Of a DNA stretch of 33,236 nt, positions 1-12,674 are shown one piece after another. The notes beneath the pieces are model-generated. The model was not told the origin of the DNA. It saw nothing but the letters and a program-made list of their open reading frames with translations, and did not search any database. The translations under genes and the position numbers were made by a program. The DNA comes from Actinomycetota bacterium (GTDB lineage: Bacteria > Actinomycetota > Acidimicrobiia > Acidimicrobiales > Ilumatobacteraceae), in contig JAFMJD010000010.1 in the NCBI GenBank assembly GCA_017853685.1, forward strand, positions 1-33,236. Direction: 5' to 3'. Each line of letters begins with the position of its first letter. Position 1 is the first letter of the stretch.

Positions 1-1
1 C

Positions 2-820
2 GACGCAGTGCGAACCGACGCAGTGCCGTCGAATCTCGTTCCACCACTCTCACGGAACTCCGCCGAATTACCGACACCGTATACCGATGACTGTTTGGGC
101 GATTCCGACGAGACCGAAGCCGGAGACTGTGCCTACGGCAAGATCGACTCCACCACCTCGATCGCGATCGTCGGTGATTCGCATTCGGCACAGTGGCAAC
201 CCGCGCTCGCCTCGATCGCCGAGCGGCGTGGCTGGAAGCTGCGTTTTTACGCAAAACGGCGTTGCGGTGCGGTGGCGTACCGAAGCGCGTACAACCCGAA
301 AGCACTCAACGATGAGTGCGACACGTGGCGAAACAACGTCATCGAGGAACTCACGCAGGATCCGGCCCAAGTCGTCATCCTCACTGCCTTGCGTTACCCC
401 ATCCTCGACGGACTCACCACCCGACGCTCCGCTCAGTGGCGCTCGGGGTTCGAGACCGTGCTCGACCGACTTGCTGCCACCGGCTCACGCCTCGTTCTGC
501 TTGGCGACCCGCCACTGCCACCGGACTGGCCGGGTGCATGTCTCGCCGATCACCTCAAGTCGGCCACGCGGTGCACCATCGATCGGAGCGACGGCGAACC
601 CGATGGGCTCGTACAGGCCGAGCAGGCCGCCGCCGAGTCCACAGGGGCCACCTACGTACGCACGGGCGACTGGTTCTGCTCCGGCGACCGCTGTGCCGTC
701 ATCATCGGCAACATCAACGTGTATCGGGACCCCAACCACATCAGCATCCCGGCCGCCATGTTCTTCATCCCGCTGCTCGAAGCAGTGCTCGGACCTCAAG
801 TGGCACTCGCCCGGGATTGA
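2..820 (+). CDS. SGNH-domain C-terminal part of a probable acyltransferase-3 family protein (5' truncated by window)
   Basis: The reading frame is open to the left edge, so the true start lies outside. The visible 272 codons form an SGNH-hydrolase-like domain: the block I motif GDSHSAQW (about residues 57-64) carries the nucleophile Ser, and DPNHIS near the C-terminus gives the Asp-x-x-His pair. This domain typically follows the ten-helix acyltransferase-3 module in OafA-type enzymes that O-acetylate surface polysaccharides; in that family the SGNH part is extracytoplasmic and helps transfer the acyl group. Cysteines (for example in DWFCSGDRC) fit an exported location. The membrane module is not visible here, so a free-standing SGNH esterase remains possible. 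The first 26 bases contain an 11-base direct repeat in frame (residues DAV-RT-DAV). The gene is followed 47 bases later by the molybdoenzyme gene on the same strand. Confidence 0.75.
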   Translation, partial: DAVRTDAVPSNLVPPLSRNSAELPTPYTDDCLGDSDETEAGDCAYGKIDSTTSIAIVGDSHSAQWQPALASIAERRGWKLRFYAKRRCGAVAYRSAYNPKALNDECDTWRNNVIEELTQDPAQVVILTALRYPILDGLTTRRSAQWRSGFETVLDRLAATGSRLVLLGDPPLPPDWPGACLADHLKSATRCTIDRSDGEPDGLVQAEQAAAESTGATYVRTGDWFCSGDRCAVIIGNINVYRDPNHISIPAAMFFIPLLEAVLGPQVALARD

Positions 821-867
821 ATATTCCGGGCGGCAACCGATCAACCGTCCGAGCCGTACGCCGAACC

Positions 868-2523
868 ATGAGCCACCGCAGCGACACCGAGACCGACTCG
901 TCTGACCCCTCGTGGGAACCCGTCGTCGCCGACGACGTCCCCGAAGTCCATCCCGATGCTCCACGGCGCCCCGCCGGTCGAATTGCTCCGTGGTACGTCG
1001 GGGCACTCTCCGGCACGGTTGCGGCCATCTTCGCAGTCGGTGTCGGGCTCGCCTCGGCACAGATGCTCACCACCACCTCCCCCACCGACGCAGTCGGTGG
1101 GGCCTTTGTCGATCGTGTTCCGAAATGGTTGAAGAACCTTGCCATCGACTGGTTCGGCACGTCTGACAAGACTGCCCTCAAAGTGGGCATGTTCATGGTG
1201 ATGGCCGCACTCGCCGTGGTGCTGGGTTGGCGGTCCTTGCGCCGACCCCTGACGGGCGCTGCGGGCTTCGCTCTCTTCGCACTGCTCGGTCTGCTCTGCG
1301 CACTCGATCGTCCGAACAGCGATGGCGCGATCGTGGTGCCGCCACTGCTCGCCGGACTCGCCGGCATCGCAGCGCTCCTGATCAGTCTGCGATCCTTCGA
1401 CCACCAATGGCGACGGGCAAACTCACCACAGCGATCACGCGCTCCGCTCGGATGGGATCGTCGGCGTTTCGTCGTGGCGTCGGGCGGCTTCGCGGCAGCC
1501 GGAGCAGCCTTGAGTGGCACTGCGGTTGCGCTCGAACAGCGTCGCGTGAACCGCCTGCGGGCGGCGGCGGGCGCCTCACTGCCGCCCCTCGCTACCGACA
1601 CCACCACCCCCACGGTCGACGACAACACAGGACCCATCAATCCGGTCACACCGTTCATCACGCCGAACAACGACTTCTATCGAATCGACACTGCGCTCTC
1701 GTTCCCGTTCATCGATCTGGATACGTGGCGCCTGCAGATCGGCGGACTCGTCGAGCGCGAGCGCGAGTTCAGCTTCGCCGAACTCCTGGAGATGGAACAG
1801 GTGGAACGCACCATCACCCTGTGCTGCGTCTCCAACGAAGTGGGCGGTGACCTCGTCGGCACGGCACGTTGGCGGGGCGTGCTCCTCGCCGACGTACTCC
1901 GAGCGTGCGGGGTCCAGTCGAGTGCAGAGCAGGTGTTCAGCACCAGCGCCGACGGCTGGACCTGTGGATTCCCGGTTGCAGCAGCGTTCGATGGACGCGA
2001 CGCCATGATCGCTCTCGGCATGAACAACGAGGGTCTACCGCTCGAACACGGATACCCCGCACGCTTGGTGATTCCCGGTCTCTACGGATACGTGTCGGCC
2101 ACGAAATGGCTTACGTCCATCCGCCTCACCACGTGGGCCGACGATGTCGGCTACTGGGTGCCACGGGGCTGGAGCCGCGAGGCTCCGGTGAAGACGCAAT
2201 CTCGCATCGACGTACCCAAGCGCGGCGCTCGGCTCGACGCCGGCACGGTTCCCGTAGCAGGAGTCGCGTGGGCGCAGGGGCGGGGCATCGCGCGGGTGGA
2301 GATCCAGATCGACGATGGACCGTGGGTGCAGGCCGAACTCGGGGCCGAGAACCTCGATGACGCGTGGCGACTCTGGCGATACACATGGGATGCGACACCC
2401 GGCGATCACCGGATCACCGTGCGCGCCACCGACGGCGAGGGCGTGGTGCAGACCGACGAAGTGGCGCCACCCGATCCCGACGGCGCCACGGGGCATCACT
2501 CCCGGCGCGTCACCGTACGCTGA
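868..2523 (+). CDS. Membrane-anchored molybdopterin-dependent oxidoreductase (sulfite oxidase/MsrP-like) with internal Tat-like motif
   Basis: 551 residues from ATG 868; the frame is open further upstream, but that stretch overlaps the preceding gene and looks like shadow. Four hydrophobic helices lie at about residues 42-66, 104-121, 128-146 and 154-174. A twin-arginine segment, DRRRFVV at about 197-203, precedes a fifth hydrophobic stretch ending near 222. The rest is a sulfite-oxidase-type molybdopterin domain, with TLCCVSNEVGG (Cys 319/320) matching the position of the molybdenum-ligating Cys, followed by a C-terminal beta-sandwich of the Mo-co dimerisation type. The cofactor domain should therefore sit outside the cytoplasm and be exported folded by Tat while the first helices are inserted by Sec. 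The substrate is unknown. The stop overlaps the convergent oxidoreductase gene by 14 bases. Confidence 0.87.
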   Translation: MSHRSDTETDSSDPSWEPVVADDVPEVHPDAPRRPAGRIAPWYVGALSGTVAAIFAVGVGLASAQMLTTTSPTDAVGGAFVDRVPKWLKNLAIDWFGTSDKTALKVGMFMVMAALAVVLGWRSLRRPLTGAAGFALFALLGLLCALDRPNSDGAIVVPPLLAGLAGIAALLISLRSFDHQWRRANSPQRSRAPLGWDRRRFVVASGGFAAAGAALSGTAVALEQRRVNRLRAAAGASLPPLATDTTTPTVDDNTGPINPVTPFITPNNDFYRIDTALSFPFIDLDTWRLQIGGLVEREREFSFAELLEMEQVERTITLCCVSNEVGGDLVGTARWRGVLLADVLRACGVQSSAEQVFSTSADGWTCGFPVAAAFDGRDAMIALGMNNEGLPLEHGYPARLVIPGLYGYVSATKWLTSIRLTTWADDVGYWVPRGWSREAPVKTQSRIDVPKRGARLDAGTVPVAGVAWAQGRGIARVEIQIDDGPWVQAELGAENLDDAWRLWRYTWDATPGDHRITVRATDGEGVVQTDEVAPPDPDGATGHHSRRVTVR

Positions 2524-5500
2524 CCGACGATCCGAAGCGCTCCAGACGCTCGGGCAACTCGGCGAGGAAGTGCTCGGCATGGCGGAGCTTGATGTCTTCG
2601 TAGCCGCGTACGTGCGAGGCGAGCGAAGCGATGGCGATCGCCTCGTCCATCGAGTCGGCATGCAGGTGATCGACGACCGTGTCGACCGCCTCGATGTATC
2701 GATCGATCAGCGCCCGCTCCACACGGCGCACCGCCGCGTGACCGAACGGATCGATCCAGCGGCCTCGTAACGGCCGCATGGCGCGCAGCAGCGAGAACAA
2801 CGGAGTTGCCCAGCGGCCGAGCCGGATCTTGCGATCCCAACCAAGTGCTCGCAGCAGCGGTGGGTGCAAGAGCCATTCCACTCGGGCACCGGGACCTCCC
2901 ACCGCTTCGGCCCGCGCCCGGGCCGAGGGGTCCAGCAGCAGGCGCGCCACTTCGTACTCGTCCTTGTACGCCATGAAGTGATGCAATTCGCGCGCGACTA
3001 TGTCCTGGAGCGCAGTCGATCCCGGGGCGACGAGCGCCTCGCGTTCGGCTACGCGTCGGACCACCGACATGAAACGCTCGGCGTAGGCAGCGTTCTGGTA
3101 GGCCACGAGGTCTTCGTAGAACACCTGCAACGGCGTCTGCTCCCCCGCAGTCGATGTCGGCACCACGTTGCGCGCTGCACTCTCGACATCTTCGGGACGC
3201 TGCGCCCACACCCGTCCGAGGCGCAGTGCGCGAATGTTCGTCTCGACTGCCACCCCGTTCAGTGCGATGGCCTGCTCCACCGCGCCGGTCGACAACGGGA
3301 TCACGCCGGACTGCAGGGCAACACCCAGTACCAATACATTCGCCGAGGCTGCATCCCCGAGAAATGTTCGGCACAACCATGCGGCATCCACGAAACGGTT
3401 GAGCGCTGCGCGGGAGACCTCGCCGACTCGCTGCTCCAGTGCAGTGTCGGTGGGATAGGGCATGTAGGGGTGAATCACCATGTTTCCGGTCGGCGTGGGC
3501 GACGACGAACCCACCACCACCGTGCGTTCGGGTGATGCGCCGGCGAGATGGGTGTCGCTCGCTGCAACGAGGAGGTCGAGCGCAAGGAGCACATCCACCA
3601 TCGCGGTGCCTGCCTTGTTGGAGGCCGGAACCGCCTGGCGCGAGATCCGAATGTCACTCACCACCGGTCCGGCCTTCTGGGACAGTCCGGTCTGGTCGAG
3701 GCCGCGCACCTCACAGCCGTCGAGCATGGCGGCCGTTCCGAGGATCTGGCTCACCGTCACCACACCCGTGCCACCGATGCCCGAGAGGCGCACCGCACAG
3801 TCGTCCCGGGGAACCACCGGAACCGGGGCACCAGGCAGGTCAGCGAGCAGACCCATGAGTACTGCCTCGGCCGCGGCTCGCGCGGGGGCGGCTCCCCTGC
3901 GGCGTGCGCGTCGCGAACCGACCCGAGCCGGTCGGATGTAGGCAAAACTCGGACAGTCGCCCTGCACACACGAGTAGTCGAAGTTGCACGAGGTCTGATC
4001 GATACGGGTCTTGCGGCCGAACACCGTGTGCACCGGCTGCACCGAGAGGCAGTTGCTCTTCTCGCCACAGTCGCCGCAGCCCTCGCACACCCGCTCGTTG
4101 ATGAGCACACGACGCTCGGGTTCGGGGACCCGACCCCGCTTGCGATCACGACGGAGTTCCGCCGCACAGCGCTGGTCGTGGATCAGCACTGTCGTACCGA
4201 GCACCGTCGAGAGACGTTCCTGGGCCTCGATCACGCGTGTGCGGTCCCACACATCTACTCCGGGCGGCAGCGTGGTACGCCGGTACCGGTCGGTGTCCTC
4301 GGTGGTGATGATTACCTGACGCACACCGTCGGCGAGCAGTACCTGCACCAACCTCGGGATGGTCATGACACCCACCGGATCCTGCCCTCCGGTCATCGCC
4401 ACTGCTCCGTTGAACAGGACCTTGTAGGTGATGTTCACCCCGGAGGCGACTGCCGCTCGAATCGCCAGCAGGCCCGAGTGGAACAGCGTTCCGTCGCCGA
4501 GGTTCTGCAGCAGGTGCGGACGATCCACGAACGGCGACATGCCGATCCACTGAGCGCCCTCGTTCCCCATCGCGGTGAGACTCGTGAGATGCCCCACCTG
4601 ATGTTCCTCCATGAACATCACCATCGAGTGGCAACCGATTCCTCCCCCCACGAGGGAGCCGTCCGGCACGCGGGTCGAGGTGTTGTGCGGACAGCCCGAG
4701 CAGAAGTACGGAGTACGAACGGTGTGCAACTCGATATTCGGGCGTCGCTTGTGTGGCAGTGGCGCAAGACGATCATCCCCGAGTCGCTGTGCGAGCCGGG
4801 AGCGGATCGGACCCAGAATCACATCTGCGTCGATTGCGCCAGAGAGGGGGATCAGTGCCACATCATCGGTGTCACGCTTGCCGGTGATGATGGGGCGGTT
4901 CGCGAGCGGGTACAGCGCGTCCTTCATCAACCACTCGAGCGTCGGATTCTTTTCCTCCACCACCAGGATCTCGGCGAGTCCGGAGGCGAACTCGCGCACG
5001 ATCGCCGGGTCGAGCGGGATCGGCATCGAGAGCTTCAGGAGTCGGATGCCCGAAGCGCGCAGCGCGTCTGGTGTCCCGAGGCCGAGACGGCCCAGCGCTT
5101 CGAGGGTCTCGTGGTACGTATGACCCGACGCGGCGATACCGATCCAGTCAGCGTCGGTACGTACTGTGATGGTGTTGAGATGATTCACCACGCCGTACTT
5201 CTGCGCGAGCGGCAGGCGGACCTCGAGGAACTCGCGTTCGCGCTCGACGGTGAAGGGGGTCACCAGACGACCGTCGGGGTGAGGGACAAAGGGCCGCCCA
5301 CCGAGGTCGAAATCAGGGATGTGCGGCACGATCCGATCGGGATGCAGGTCCACAGTTCCCGTGCCGTCGGCCACCGCGGCAACCACCTTGAGCGCCGACC
5401 ACAGGCCCGAAGCACGAGACACTGCGATGGCGTGACGCCCGAGGTCGAGGGCCTCTTGCACGTCGCCCGGGTACAGCAGAGGCAGGTGAAGGTCGACGAT

Positions 5501-6013
5501 GTTGGAGTCGGACGAACTCGGCAGCGTGGACGACTTCGCGGCGGGGTCATCCCCTACGAGCGCGATCGCACCGCCGCGCGGTGACACACCGGCAAACACA
5601 CCGTGACGCATGGCGTCGCTGGCACGATCCAGGCCGGGCGCCTTCCCGTACCACACACCGACCACCCCGTCGTACGAGCAGCCATCGACAGTCACCGCCA
5701 ACTGCGAGCCCATCACTGCCGTAGCGGCGAGTTCCTCGTTCAACGCCGGTTGGTGCACCAGATGCAGCCCATCGGCCCGAGCAGTTGCTGCTGCGGTCGC
5801 GATGTCGCCGTCGTACCCGGCGAGCGGTGAACCGGGATAACCCGAGACGAACGCAGCCGTGTGCCAGCCATGTCGCCGATCCACACGCAGTTGCTCGACA
5901 ACGAGTCGGGCGAGCGCCTGCGAACCCGACATGAAGACCCGACCCTCGTCCATCGCGTACCGATCGACGAGTCGATACCCATGCGCACCGATCGGGTCAT
6001 TCATCCCGATCAT
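2510..6013 (-). CDS. Indolepyruvate ferredoxin oxidoreductase-type fused 2-oxoacid oxidoreductase
   Basis: About 1167 residues, full length for the single-chain family. The order is: an N-terminal pyruvate-ferredoxin-oxidoreductase-like domain (FVSGYPGSPLAGYD), a thiamine-diphosphate-binding C-domain (GGGIGCHS then LGDGTLFHSG), a 4Fe-4S segment with the pattern C-x2-C-x2-C-x5-C encoded around 4050-4090, a gamma domain (SGIGGTGVVTVSQ) and a long C-terminal region of the type seen after the gamma domain in this family. The family decarboxylates aryl or branched 2-oxoacids to acyl-CoA and reduces ferredoxin; the actual substrate cannot be read here. Start: ATG 6013 (MIGMNDP) or ATG 6004 (MNDP); the conserved family N-terminus begins a few residues later, so either fits. 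A 3-codon mini-ORF behind a GAGGAG box ends in an ATGA overlap with ATG 6013. The gene is divergent from the quinone reductase-like pair. Confidence 0.9.
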   Translation of the reverse strand: MIGMNDPIGAHGYRLVDRYAMDEGRVFMSGSQALARLVVEQLRVDRRHGWHTAAFVSGYPGSPLAGYDGDIATAAATARADGLHLVHQPALNEELAATAVMGSQLAVTVDGCSYDGVVGVWYGKAPGLDRASDAMRHGVFAGVSPRGGAIALVGDDPAAKSSTLPSSSDSNIVDLHLPLLYPGDVQEALDLGRHAIAVSRASGLWSALKVVAAVADGTGTVDLHPDRIVPHIPDFDLGGRPFVPHPDGRLVTPFTVEREREFLEVRLPLAQKYGVVNHLNTITVRTDADWIGIAASGHTYHETLEALGRLGLGTPDALRASGIRLLKLSMPIPLDPAIVREFASGLAEILVVEEKNPTLEWLMKDALYPLANRPIITGKRDTDDVALIPLSGAIDADVILGPIRSRLAQRLGDDRLAPLPHKRRPNIELHTVRTPYFCSGCPHNTSTRVPDGSLVGGGIGCHSMVMFMEEHQVGHLTSLTAMGNEGAQWIGMSPFVDRPHLLQNLGDGTLFHSGLLAIRAAVASGVNITYKVLFNGAVAMTGGQDPVGVMTIPRLVQVLLADGVRQVIITTEDTDRYRRTTLPPGVDVWDRTRVIEAQERLSTVLGTTVLIHDQRCAAELRRDRKRGRVPEPERRVLINERVCEGCGDCGEKSNCLSVQPVHTVFGRKTRIDQTSCNFDYSCVQGDCPSFAYIRPARVGSRRARRRGAAPARAAAEAVLMGLLADLPGAPVPVVPRDDCAVRLSGIGGTGVVTVSQILGTAAMLDGCEVRGLDQTGLSQKAGPVVSDIRISRQAVPASNKAGTAMVDVLLALDLLVAASDTHLAGASPERTVVVGSSSPTPTGNMVIHPYMPYPTDTALEQRVGEVSRAALNRFVDAAWLCRTFLGDAASANVLVLGVALQSGVIPLSTGAVEQAIALNGVAVETNIRALRLGRVWAQRPEDVESAARNVVPTSTAGEQTPLQVFYEDLVAYQNAAYAERFMSVVRRVAEREALVAPGSTALQDIVARELHHFMAYKDEYEVARLLLDPSARARAEAVGGPGARVEWLLHPPLLRALGWDRKIRLGRWATPLFSLLRAMRPLRGRWIDPFGHAAVRRVERALIDRYIEAVDTVVDHLHADSMDEAIAIASLASHVRGYEDIKLRHAEHFLAELPERLERFGSSVSVR

Positions 6014-6067
6014 TCTCGCATGCAGACTCCTCACGCGGGTGACCGCTACCGTTGGTCGTAGCTCCAC

Positions 6068-6649
6068 ATGAACGTCACGGTGATCTTCTGCCTGCCCGAA
6101 TCGAACGGGTTTCTCGCTGCGTGCACACGCACGGTGATCGATGCGCTCGACTCGCACCACGTCGACCTGGTCGATCTCGTGGCCGATGGTTTCGTGCCGG
6201 CCATGACCGCTGAGGAGCGACAGGCGTATTTCACCGACACACCCATCTGTGATCCACTGATCGAGCGCTACGCCGAATACGTCAACCGTGCCGACGCGCT
6301 GGTGTTCGTCTACCACAGCACGTGGTACGGCCTACCCGCTCTCACGAAGGGCTGGCTCGAGAAGGTCATGGTGCCCGGCGTTGCATTCGGGTTCGACGAC
6401 AACGGCACGATCGAAGCACGTTTGCATCACGTGCGGCGGATCGCTGGCGTTGCCACACACGATGTGTCGGCCCGCGAGCTTCGCTCGGTGGTGGACGGGG
6501 GTCGGCGAACATTGCTGCGCGCGCTGCGCGTGTCTGCGGGATTGCGTACGCGCACCTCGTGGTTCGCGCTCTACAACTCCTCCACTTCCGATGTTCGCGG
6601 GCAGGAACGCTTTCTGGCCAGACTGCAGCGGGGGTTTGCTCGATGGTGA
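6068..6649 (+). CDS. Flavodoxin-fold NAD(P)H quinone reductase-like protein (first of a pair)
   Basis: 193 residues. The region HSTWYGLPALTKGWLEKV followed by GVAFGFDDNG (about residues 83-115) is the hallmark of the NQO1/KefF/MdaB flavodoxin-like family: the aromatic P-x-W-like segment contacts FMN/FAD and the G-W-L-E-K-V helix follows. The N-terminal phosphate-binding strand is altered: where relatives have H-P-x-P-x-S, this protein has CLPESNG. Such enzymes do two-electron reduction of quinones or related electrophiles with NAD(P)H. The protein has no signal peptide and should be cytoplasmic. Its stop codon overlaps the start of a paralogous gene (ATGGTGA), so the two are probably translated together and may form a heterodimer. 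The start ATG is only 54 bases from the divergent 2-oxoacid oxidoreductase start. Confidence 0.82.
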   Translation: MNVTVIFCLPESNGFLAACTRTVIDALDSHHVDLVDLVADGFVPAMTAEERQAYFTDTPICDPLIERYAEYVNRADALVFVYHSTWYGLPALTKGWLEKVMVPGVAFGFDDNGTIEARLHHVRRIAGVATHDVSARELRSVVDGGRRTLLRALRVSAGLRTRTSWFALYNSSTSDVRGQERFLARLQRGFARW

Positions 6650-11939: not shown

Positions 11940-12674
11940 TCAAGGATACGGGACTGCCGGGAACTCTTCCAACAGCCGCTGCTCGTCCGGTGAGACCCCA
12001 CCGCGGGCGGCGATGAGGTCGGGCCGGTGCGCGATGGTGCGGTGCAGGCGCTGCGCCAGACGCCACCGGGCGATGCGGGCATGGTCACCGGACCGCAGCA
12101 CGGCGGGCACCTCCCAGCCCCGGAACTCCGCCGGTCGGGTGTAGTTCGGCTCCTCGAGGAGGCCGTCGGCACCAAAACTCTCCGTGATCGGGCTCTCGGC
12201 GTTGCCCATCACCCCGGGCAGCAGGCGAGTCACCGCTTCGATCACGAGACATGCGGCCACCTCTCCCCCCGCCAGCACCACATCACCCACGCTCAGTTCG
12301 CCGTCCACGAGATGTTCACGGATCCGGTGGTCGATGCCCTCGTACCGCCCACACAGCAGGCTGAAGCCGCCCAGGCCTGCCAGTTCGGTGGCCATGGCCT
12401 GATCGAAACGGCGCCCACCCGGGCCGAGCAGGTACAGCGGTCGGGGGGCATCAGCGGCATCGATCGACGACGCGATCGGTTCGGGGCGCATCAGCATCCC
12501 TGCTCCACCGCCGAACGGAGCGTCGTCCACCGTGCGATGCACATCGGTGGTGTACTCACGCGGATCGTGACAGCGCAGATCCACCAACCCGTTCGCCCGA
12601 GCCCGACCCAGCAGCGCCTCGGAGCAGAAACGGTCCACCATGGTCGGGAAGATCGTGAAGACGTCGATGCGCAT
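11940..12674 (-). CDS. trmD: tRNA (guanine-N1)-methyltransferase
   Basis: 244 residues. It methylates G37 of tRNAs with G36-G37, preventing +1 frameshifting. The trefoil-knot SPOUT signatures are present: [10 protein letters not shown] start, [41 protein letters not shown] and [10 protein letters not shown], where the knot binds S-adenosylmethionine, then [27 protein letters not shown], with the catalytic Asp region. The start ATG 12674 lies two bases after the rimM stop, so translation is coupled. Longer in-frame readings run through rimM and are not used. Confidence 0.97.

Follow-up and report, generated by a model that had tools for sequence, protein, structure and literature searches.

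A second five-helix molybdoenzyme family of Actinomycetota, predicted to be assembled by Sec and Tat around a four-helix domain without conserved heme ligands

The closest described counterpart of the protein analyzed here is Sco3746, which Tooke et al. (2017, eLife, PMC5449189) present as a five-transmembrane-domain (TMD) molybdenum cofactor (Moco) protein that uses both Sec and Tat and carries a twin-arginine (RR) pair before TMD5. They predict histidines in TMDs 2, 3, and 4 to be the ligands of two b hemes; three of these residues are conserved, whereas a fourth, where TMD3 begins, is not. Sec release is described as promoted by a weakly hydrophobic last helix and the positive charges after it. 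The actinobacterial Rieske protein (QcrA/Sco2149) also appears there as a dual Sec/Tat protein with RR before its last helix. It usually has three helices and an Fe–S domain, unlike the protein described here, to which it is likened by architecture and not by sequence. The initial annotation of this locus supposed that five-helix molybdoenzymes had already been noted in actinobacteria, and that paper bears this out: the dual Sec/Tat layout and routing principle is not new, having been published for Sco3746 (Tooke et al., 2017).

The window (the whole stretch of DNA analyzed, 33,236 nucleotides) is one entire contig, C220, of a 2.8 Mb draft genome that is 85.7% complete and 6.8% contaminated and whose relatives mark it as actinobacterial. 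A five-helix molybdopterin oxidoreductase gene runs from ATG to stop at 868..2523 on the forward strand, as do all its features below, and encodes a 551-residue protein, here named P0001. Its AlphaFold2 model (mean pLDDT 89.8, pTM 0.85; 64-row alignment), which cannot discriminate inside from outside, has helices at residues 42–66, 72–83, 86–123, 127–146, 153–185, and 198–236. The first corresponds to TM1 (991..1065), predicted to be Sec-inserted and N-in. The first predicted outside loop (1081..1173, residues 72–102) contains the one extra helix, 72–83, and carries the family signature from about residue 75. TM2 (1174..1236, about residues 103–123) is the membrane part of helix 86–123; TM3 lies at 1246..1305 (helix 127–146) and TM4 at 1324..1422 (helix 153–185, membrane part about 153–175). 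The twin-arginine motif D-R-R-R-F-V (1456..1473, residues 197–202), assigned from the sequence and the homologue alignment, falls within GWDRRRFVVASGG (residues 195–207), where the RR stretch reads GWDRRRFVV. It leads into TM5 (1459..1575, helix 198–236), the predicted uncleaved Tat signal helix, which ends in a basic EQRRVNRLR. A molybdopterin-binding domain follows (PF00174, residues 279–424, 1702..2139; Pfam E 3.9e-43) with Cys320 (1825..1827), aligned with SorA Cys104, as predicted molybdenum ligand, and then a C-terminal Mo-co dimerisation-type domain (PF03404, residues 443–530, 2194..2457) whose match is marginal (22.8 bits; cut-off 22.7). The architecture proposed in the initial annotation, four hydrophobic helices, an RR motif, a fifth helix, and a sulfite-oxidase-fold domain, was confirmed and correctly placed.

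Homologues were collected with two catalytic-domain patterns, neither of which includes the RR pair. At least 592 stretches matched these patterns and at least 590 were confirmed as relatives, of which the best 80 were used (the named loci); by title these are mostly Actinomycetota, with three Chloroflexi records and one Acidobacteria record. L097, broken at its 5′ end, enters with its downstream part only. All of the best 80 of at least 590 relatives contain the RR pair (81/81 with the window), which at two loci is displaced by a single column of the alignment; since the loci were collected by patterns without RR, this conservation is more than chance. Loss of RR in close homologues had been named as grounds for abandoning the Sec/Tat reading, and no such loss was found among these 80. 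R198 and R199 are likewise invariant in a smaller set (n = 23, including the window), and Cys320 is kept in 80/80 of the best 80. Within that same selection of at least 590, the residue at F201 is F in 60/80 and position 202 is L in 58/80; F followed by L at these positions matches the Tat consensus. One homologue, L007 (G012:C3), has an in-frame TAG before TM1 that may be upstream of the true start. In the tree, the gene of L034, from a record titled Bifidobacterium breve (MAG), is nested within the group of sequences closely related to the window's, and it probably sits on a mis-binned contig. The genome's second PF00174 protein, on G000:C5 (L002, L124), has a 218-aa frame in which no membrane helix or RR signal was seen.

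Lysine and arginine are denser in predicted inside loops than in outside loops in 78/81 sequences (the window plus the best 80 of at least 590), a bias that places the N-terminus inside and the catalytic domain outside. In P0001, the 19-residue Kyte–Doolittle maxima of TM1 to TM4 are 1.98, 2.03, 2.20, and 2.42, and that of TM5 is the lowest at 1.47; four K/R occur in the 25 residues after it. Across the window and the best 80 of at least 590, TM5 is weaker than TM1 in 54/81, TM2 in 80/81, TM3 in 63/81, and TM4 in 63/81, and median residue-sum hydrophobicities of TM1 and TM5 are nearly equal (2.46 and 2.43; 81 sequences); all these hydrophobicity values were obtained by a method different from the server of Tooke et al. 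In this same set, 54/81 sequences carry a net charge of at least +2 behind TM5. By prediction, P0001 has the class features of dual Sec/Tat polytopic proteins, namely N-in helices in even number ahead of an RR motif, then a single further helix that leads to a cofactor domain; the class feature of a last helix of low hydrophobicity with positive charges is present in P0001 and only partly in the family.

Sco3746 and the window family share a plan of four TMDs, RR right before TMD5, and a weak TMD5 followed by positive charges, as well as a homologous sulfite-oxidase-type Moco domain and a variable loop between TM4 and RR. From RR onward, the window family is homologous to the Sco3746 type (hhalign 99.8%, E 9.5e-29), and the catalytic domain alone gives 99.7%; the four-helix domains, however, yield no alignment (hhalign 0.05%, E 0.8, with a shallow Sco3746-type profile of 18 sequences, Neff ~3). 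In those 18 proteins from other genomes, taken as Sco3746-type by histidine pattern alone and not including Sco3746 itself, His84, His156, and His170 occur in 18/18 and His117 in 15/18. By contrast, histidine is found in TM1 of 15/81, TM2 of 1/81, TM3 of 2/81, and TM4 of 11/81 aligned sequences of the window family (window plus best 80 of at least 590), which lacks the conserved TMD2–4 histidines of Sco3746. No histidine falls within the membrane-spanning portions of the P0001 helices; the one nearby, His179, sits where helix 4 continues on the inside. The window family further differs in its FGTxDK loop motif and in an extra C-terminal PF03404-like domain, the Sco3746-type proteins L126 and L132 being shorter (377 and 393 aa). 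On sequence grounds, the window protein represents a second five-helix family distinct from the Sco3746 type, because the heme histidines are absent and the four-helix domains not detectably related by profile, while the catalytic domains are homologous. A search of the best-ranked open-licence literature returned no description of this family beyond Tooke et al. (2017), whose online scan table, outside that search, may include members.

The hallmark of the family lies in the first outside loop and reads SPxxxVGxxxIDxxPxxxKxxAIxxFGTxDK; D100 is invariant and K101 at least 90% conserved in one alignment (A2), and K101 is invariant in another (A3). Of 148 genomes drawn from across the phylum, 49 are matched by a profile of the four-helix domain, counting the window's own. 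Nearly all of these matches lie in open frames of at least 496 residues, leaving room for a catalytic domain. Three candidate stand-alone copies were rejected: the frame in G068 ends at an assembly gap (L176), that in G088 continues beyond RR as far as the first part of a catalytic domain (L177), and that in G109 is at a contig end. The short-frame match G015:C62 is weak and partial (E 1.6e-4). Pfam returned only weak matches to the four-helix domain (46 members, best E 0.0017; the window's single match under cut-off), and comparison with solved structures gave no clear fold match (Foldseek best E 1.9; VIA-align best Z 5.1).

The best structure and sequence matches of P0001 are SorA chains (2blf: Foldseek 7.5e-25; profile 7.9e-44), with sulfite oxidases also matched. 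SorA, SoxC, and chicken sulfite oxidase have the fold and the Moco cysteine in common with P0001; however, their matched chains have no membrane domain, and key active-site residues differ by alignment. Trp435 aligns with SorA Tyr236, and SorA Arg109 falls in a stretch absent from the family in the sequence alignment; these SorA residues are the catalytic tyrosine and one substrate arginine, beside the cysteine loop, respectively. When wild-type SorA is aligned, Arg272 is paired with Arg55 and Asp274 with His57; both pairs are uncertain, since mutant chains align otherwise there. MsrP (E. coli YedY), a Tat-exported Moco domain with a membrane protein as partner, is homologous by profile (98.1%, E 8.6e-14), but it is a separate soluble protein, and its partner MsrQ (YedZ), a heme protein, does not resemble the four-helix domain (0.08%).

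Two other assignments of P0001 must be weighed against a second family. The first would make it a plain Sco3746 member whose two b hemes exchange electrons with Moco, much as MsrQ and MsrP might if joined in one chain. The shared five-helix plan, RR before TM5, and the homology from RR onward fit such a protein, and the shallow Sco3746-type profile leaves room for a very remote four-helix relation; yet the four-helix domains fail to align, and histidines held in 15–18 of 18 Sco3746-type proteins face counts of 1, 2, and 11 of 81 in TM2, TM3, and TM4 (window plus best 80 of at least 590). We therefore ruled out membership on the missing histidines and undetectable four-helix relation, and regard the heme-based reading as highly improbable. 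That P0001 is a SorA/SoxC-type sulfite dehydrogenase, an identity compatible with Sec/Tat routing, draws on the SorA chains as top structural and sequence matches and on hits to the NCBIfam SoxC and SorA models. These hits score 119.6 and 118.5 bits, however, far under cut-offs of 420 and 600, and Trp435 in place of Tyr236 and the missing Arg109 stretch also tell against it; we consider this identity unlikely. P0001 scores 41.1 bits with NCBIfam MsrP (cut-off 207) and is also far under the cut-off for SorT. Given the low SoxC, SorA, SorT, and MsrP scores and the differing active-site residues, we think that P0001 is probably not a standard sulfite dehydrogenase.

Five relatives (L139, L140, L181, L183, and L184) carry the catalytic domain, 50–66% identical to that of P0001, behind a single RR signal and have no four-helix domain; the four-helix profile search found no match in any of them. 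In L139, L140, and L181, the hydrophobic stretch ends in a lipobox-like cysteine, which L183 and L184 do not have. L139 and L140 are Tat-lipoprotein-like paralogues in two congeneric genomes (65–66% identical), and the tree places them beside P0001 (fork 94/65) within a starred clade of 15 rows; L181 groups with L183, and L184 with L041, both away from the P0001 group. A single clade for the five lone-signal rows is rejected (p-AU 0.00039), and the tree needs three architecture switches, counted without direction for five rows against 56, leaving out L186, L191, L192, and L193 (no confirmed four-helix match) and three Sco3746-type rows. The swap to a lone RR signal suggests that a Tat-type unit needs no more than the RR helix and the catalytic domain, and, as far as sequences can tell, nothing else in this analysis speaks as strongly for the five-helix form being routed by Tat. 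In the more distant L191 and L192, the catalytic domain comes after an RR helix together with several further helices, a region with a four-helix match of E 0.026 in the former and none in the latter; these regions may be additional membrane domains of different kinds.

We consider it quite probable that P0001 is a membrane molybdoenzyme built by Sec and then Tat, with a heme-ligand-free four-helix anchor and electrons passing via a separate carrier or quinone. Sec would insert helices 1–4 co-translationally and release TM5 on the inner face, on account of its low hydrophobicity and the arginines behind it. The C-terminal domain would take up Moco and fold in the cytoplasm; Tat would then recognise the RR pair and carry the folded domain outside, TM5 staying as a transmembrane anchor. 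Once mature, the enzyme, of sulfite-oxidase fold, would sit on the outer side of the membrane, anchored by a four-helix domain that is presumably free of heme. As that domain has no conserved heme ligands, the enzyme would exchange electrons either with quinone itself or with some separate carrier. The same genome encodes TatC (contig C46, E 4.9e-64) and MoaA (contig C143, E 6.8e-38). The division of labor foreseen in the initial annotation, Sec for helices 1–4, Tat for the fifth, and a cofactor domain outside, is thus supported as a prediction by the sequence features and by RR kept in 80/80 of the best 80 of at least 590.

A simpler routing would take the whole protein through Sec alone, with RR kept merely as an inside-positive topology signal. 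A generally basic loop 4 would suit it, as would a TM5 weaker than TM1 in just 54/81 (window plus best 80 of at least 590). But topology calls for positive charge, not for an invariant RR pair; five relatives use RR as a lone signal; and periplasmic molybdopterin proteins are termed obligately Tat-dependent in a further paper (PMC10924467). Together these make Sec alone very unlikely. It is also conceivable that TM5 never spans the membrane, which would leave the catalytic domain in the cytoplasm, given the weak hydrophobicity of TM5 in P0001 and a model blind to inside and outside. A cytoplasmic domain, however, leaves RR conservation in 80/80 of the best 80 of at least 590 unexplained, and in L139, L140, and L181 the domain looks like a lipoprotein-like Tat substrate, which would put it outside; we find this arrangement scarcely credible and retain Sec insertion followed by Tat export.

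The gene neighborhood offers some indication of role. Within 2.5 kb, genes for a SigK-like sigma factor (15/80), an anti-sigma factor (15/80), and a fasciclin-like lipoprotein (11/80) occur, in 21 different loci together, with counts of 0, 0, and 0 at 5–7.5 kb (best 80 of at least 590, of which 52/80 have 7.5 kb on both sides and 66/80 have 2.5 kb). Moco-synthesis genes are near in 8/80 of these best loci, all from Arthrobacter, Pseudarthrobacter, Specibacter, Microbacterium, or Leifsonia, with near versus far counts of 7/0 for moeA, 7/0 for moaE, 7/2 for moaC, 7/2 for mog, and 6/2 for moaA; all near counts, those of the sigma, anti-sigma, and fasciclin genes included, are favored because families were chosen for recurring within 6 kb. 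Neighbor labels rest on one representative per family: the anti-sigma, MoaC, and MoaA representatives score above NCBIfam cut-offs, MoeA and MoaE below, and the sigma factor, at 201.6 bits, falls short of the SigK cut-off (226), while the fasciclin label is our own reading, NCBIfam giving no match. None of the SigK-like, anti-sigma, fasciclin, or Moco genes was found in window positions 1–4020 or in the 19 window ORFs scanned, and ten close-relative loci gave only one fasciclin match (L121) and one weak sigma match (L117). The SigK–RskA pair is reportedly redox-sensitive in M. tuberculosis; no paper that connects an enzyme of this kind with SigK or RskA was found in the best-ranked open-licence literature. 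An envelope redox or repair role is a guess from this neighborhood in some lineages, and it draws mainly on other lineages since such neighbors are near-absent from the window and its close relatives.

In the window itself, an SGNH-domain gene (8–820, forward) lies just upstream of the molybdoenzyme, and a 2-oxoacid:ferredoxin oxidoreductase-type gene (2510–6316, reverse) separates it from a downstream flavodoxin-fold gene (PF02525; 6322–7239, forward). Housekeeping genes of TrmD, FtsY, SMC, Fpg, RNase III, PlsX-type, RecG, and FakA-type, assigned by Pfam, follow at 11940–31979 on the reverse strand. SGNH and flavodoxin-like sequences directly flank the gene in both congeners (L114, L115), where two overlapping flavodoxin matches in different frames suggest tandem genes. 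As general partners, SGNH and flavodoxin were rejected, with 0/80 of the best 80 of at least 590 at E 1e-6.

Taken together, we somewhat favor the view that this is an independently built second family, in which a new type of heme-less four-helix domain was placed on the same Tat-routed module, so that the handover architecture would have arisen more than once, with at least three switches between lone and five-helix forms. Nothing is overturned, the routing principle having already been published. If correct, dual Sec/Tat assembly would extend to a common actinobacterial enzyme family, its four-helix domain being present in 49 of 148 sampled genomes. The family would also provide a natural experiment, with the same kind of catalytic domain occurring with and without a Sec-inserted half, and it raises the question of how electrons pass in a membrane molybdoenzyme without heme ligands.
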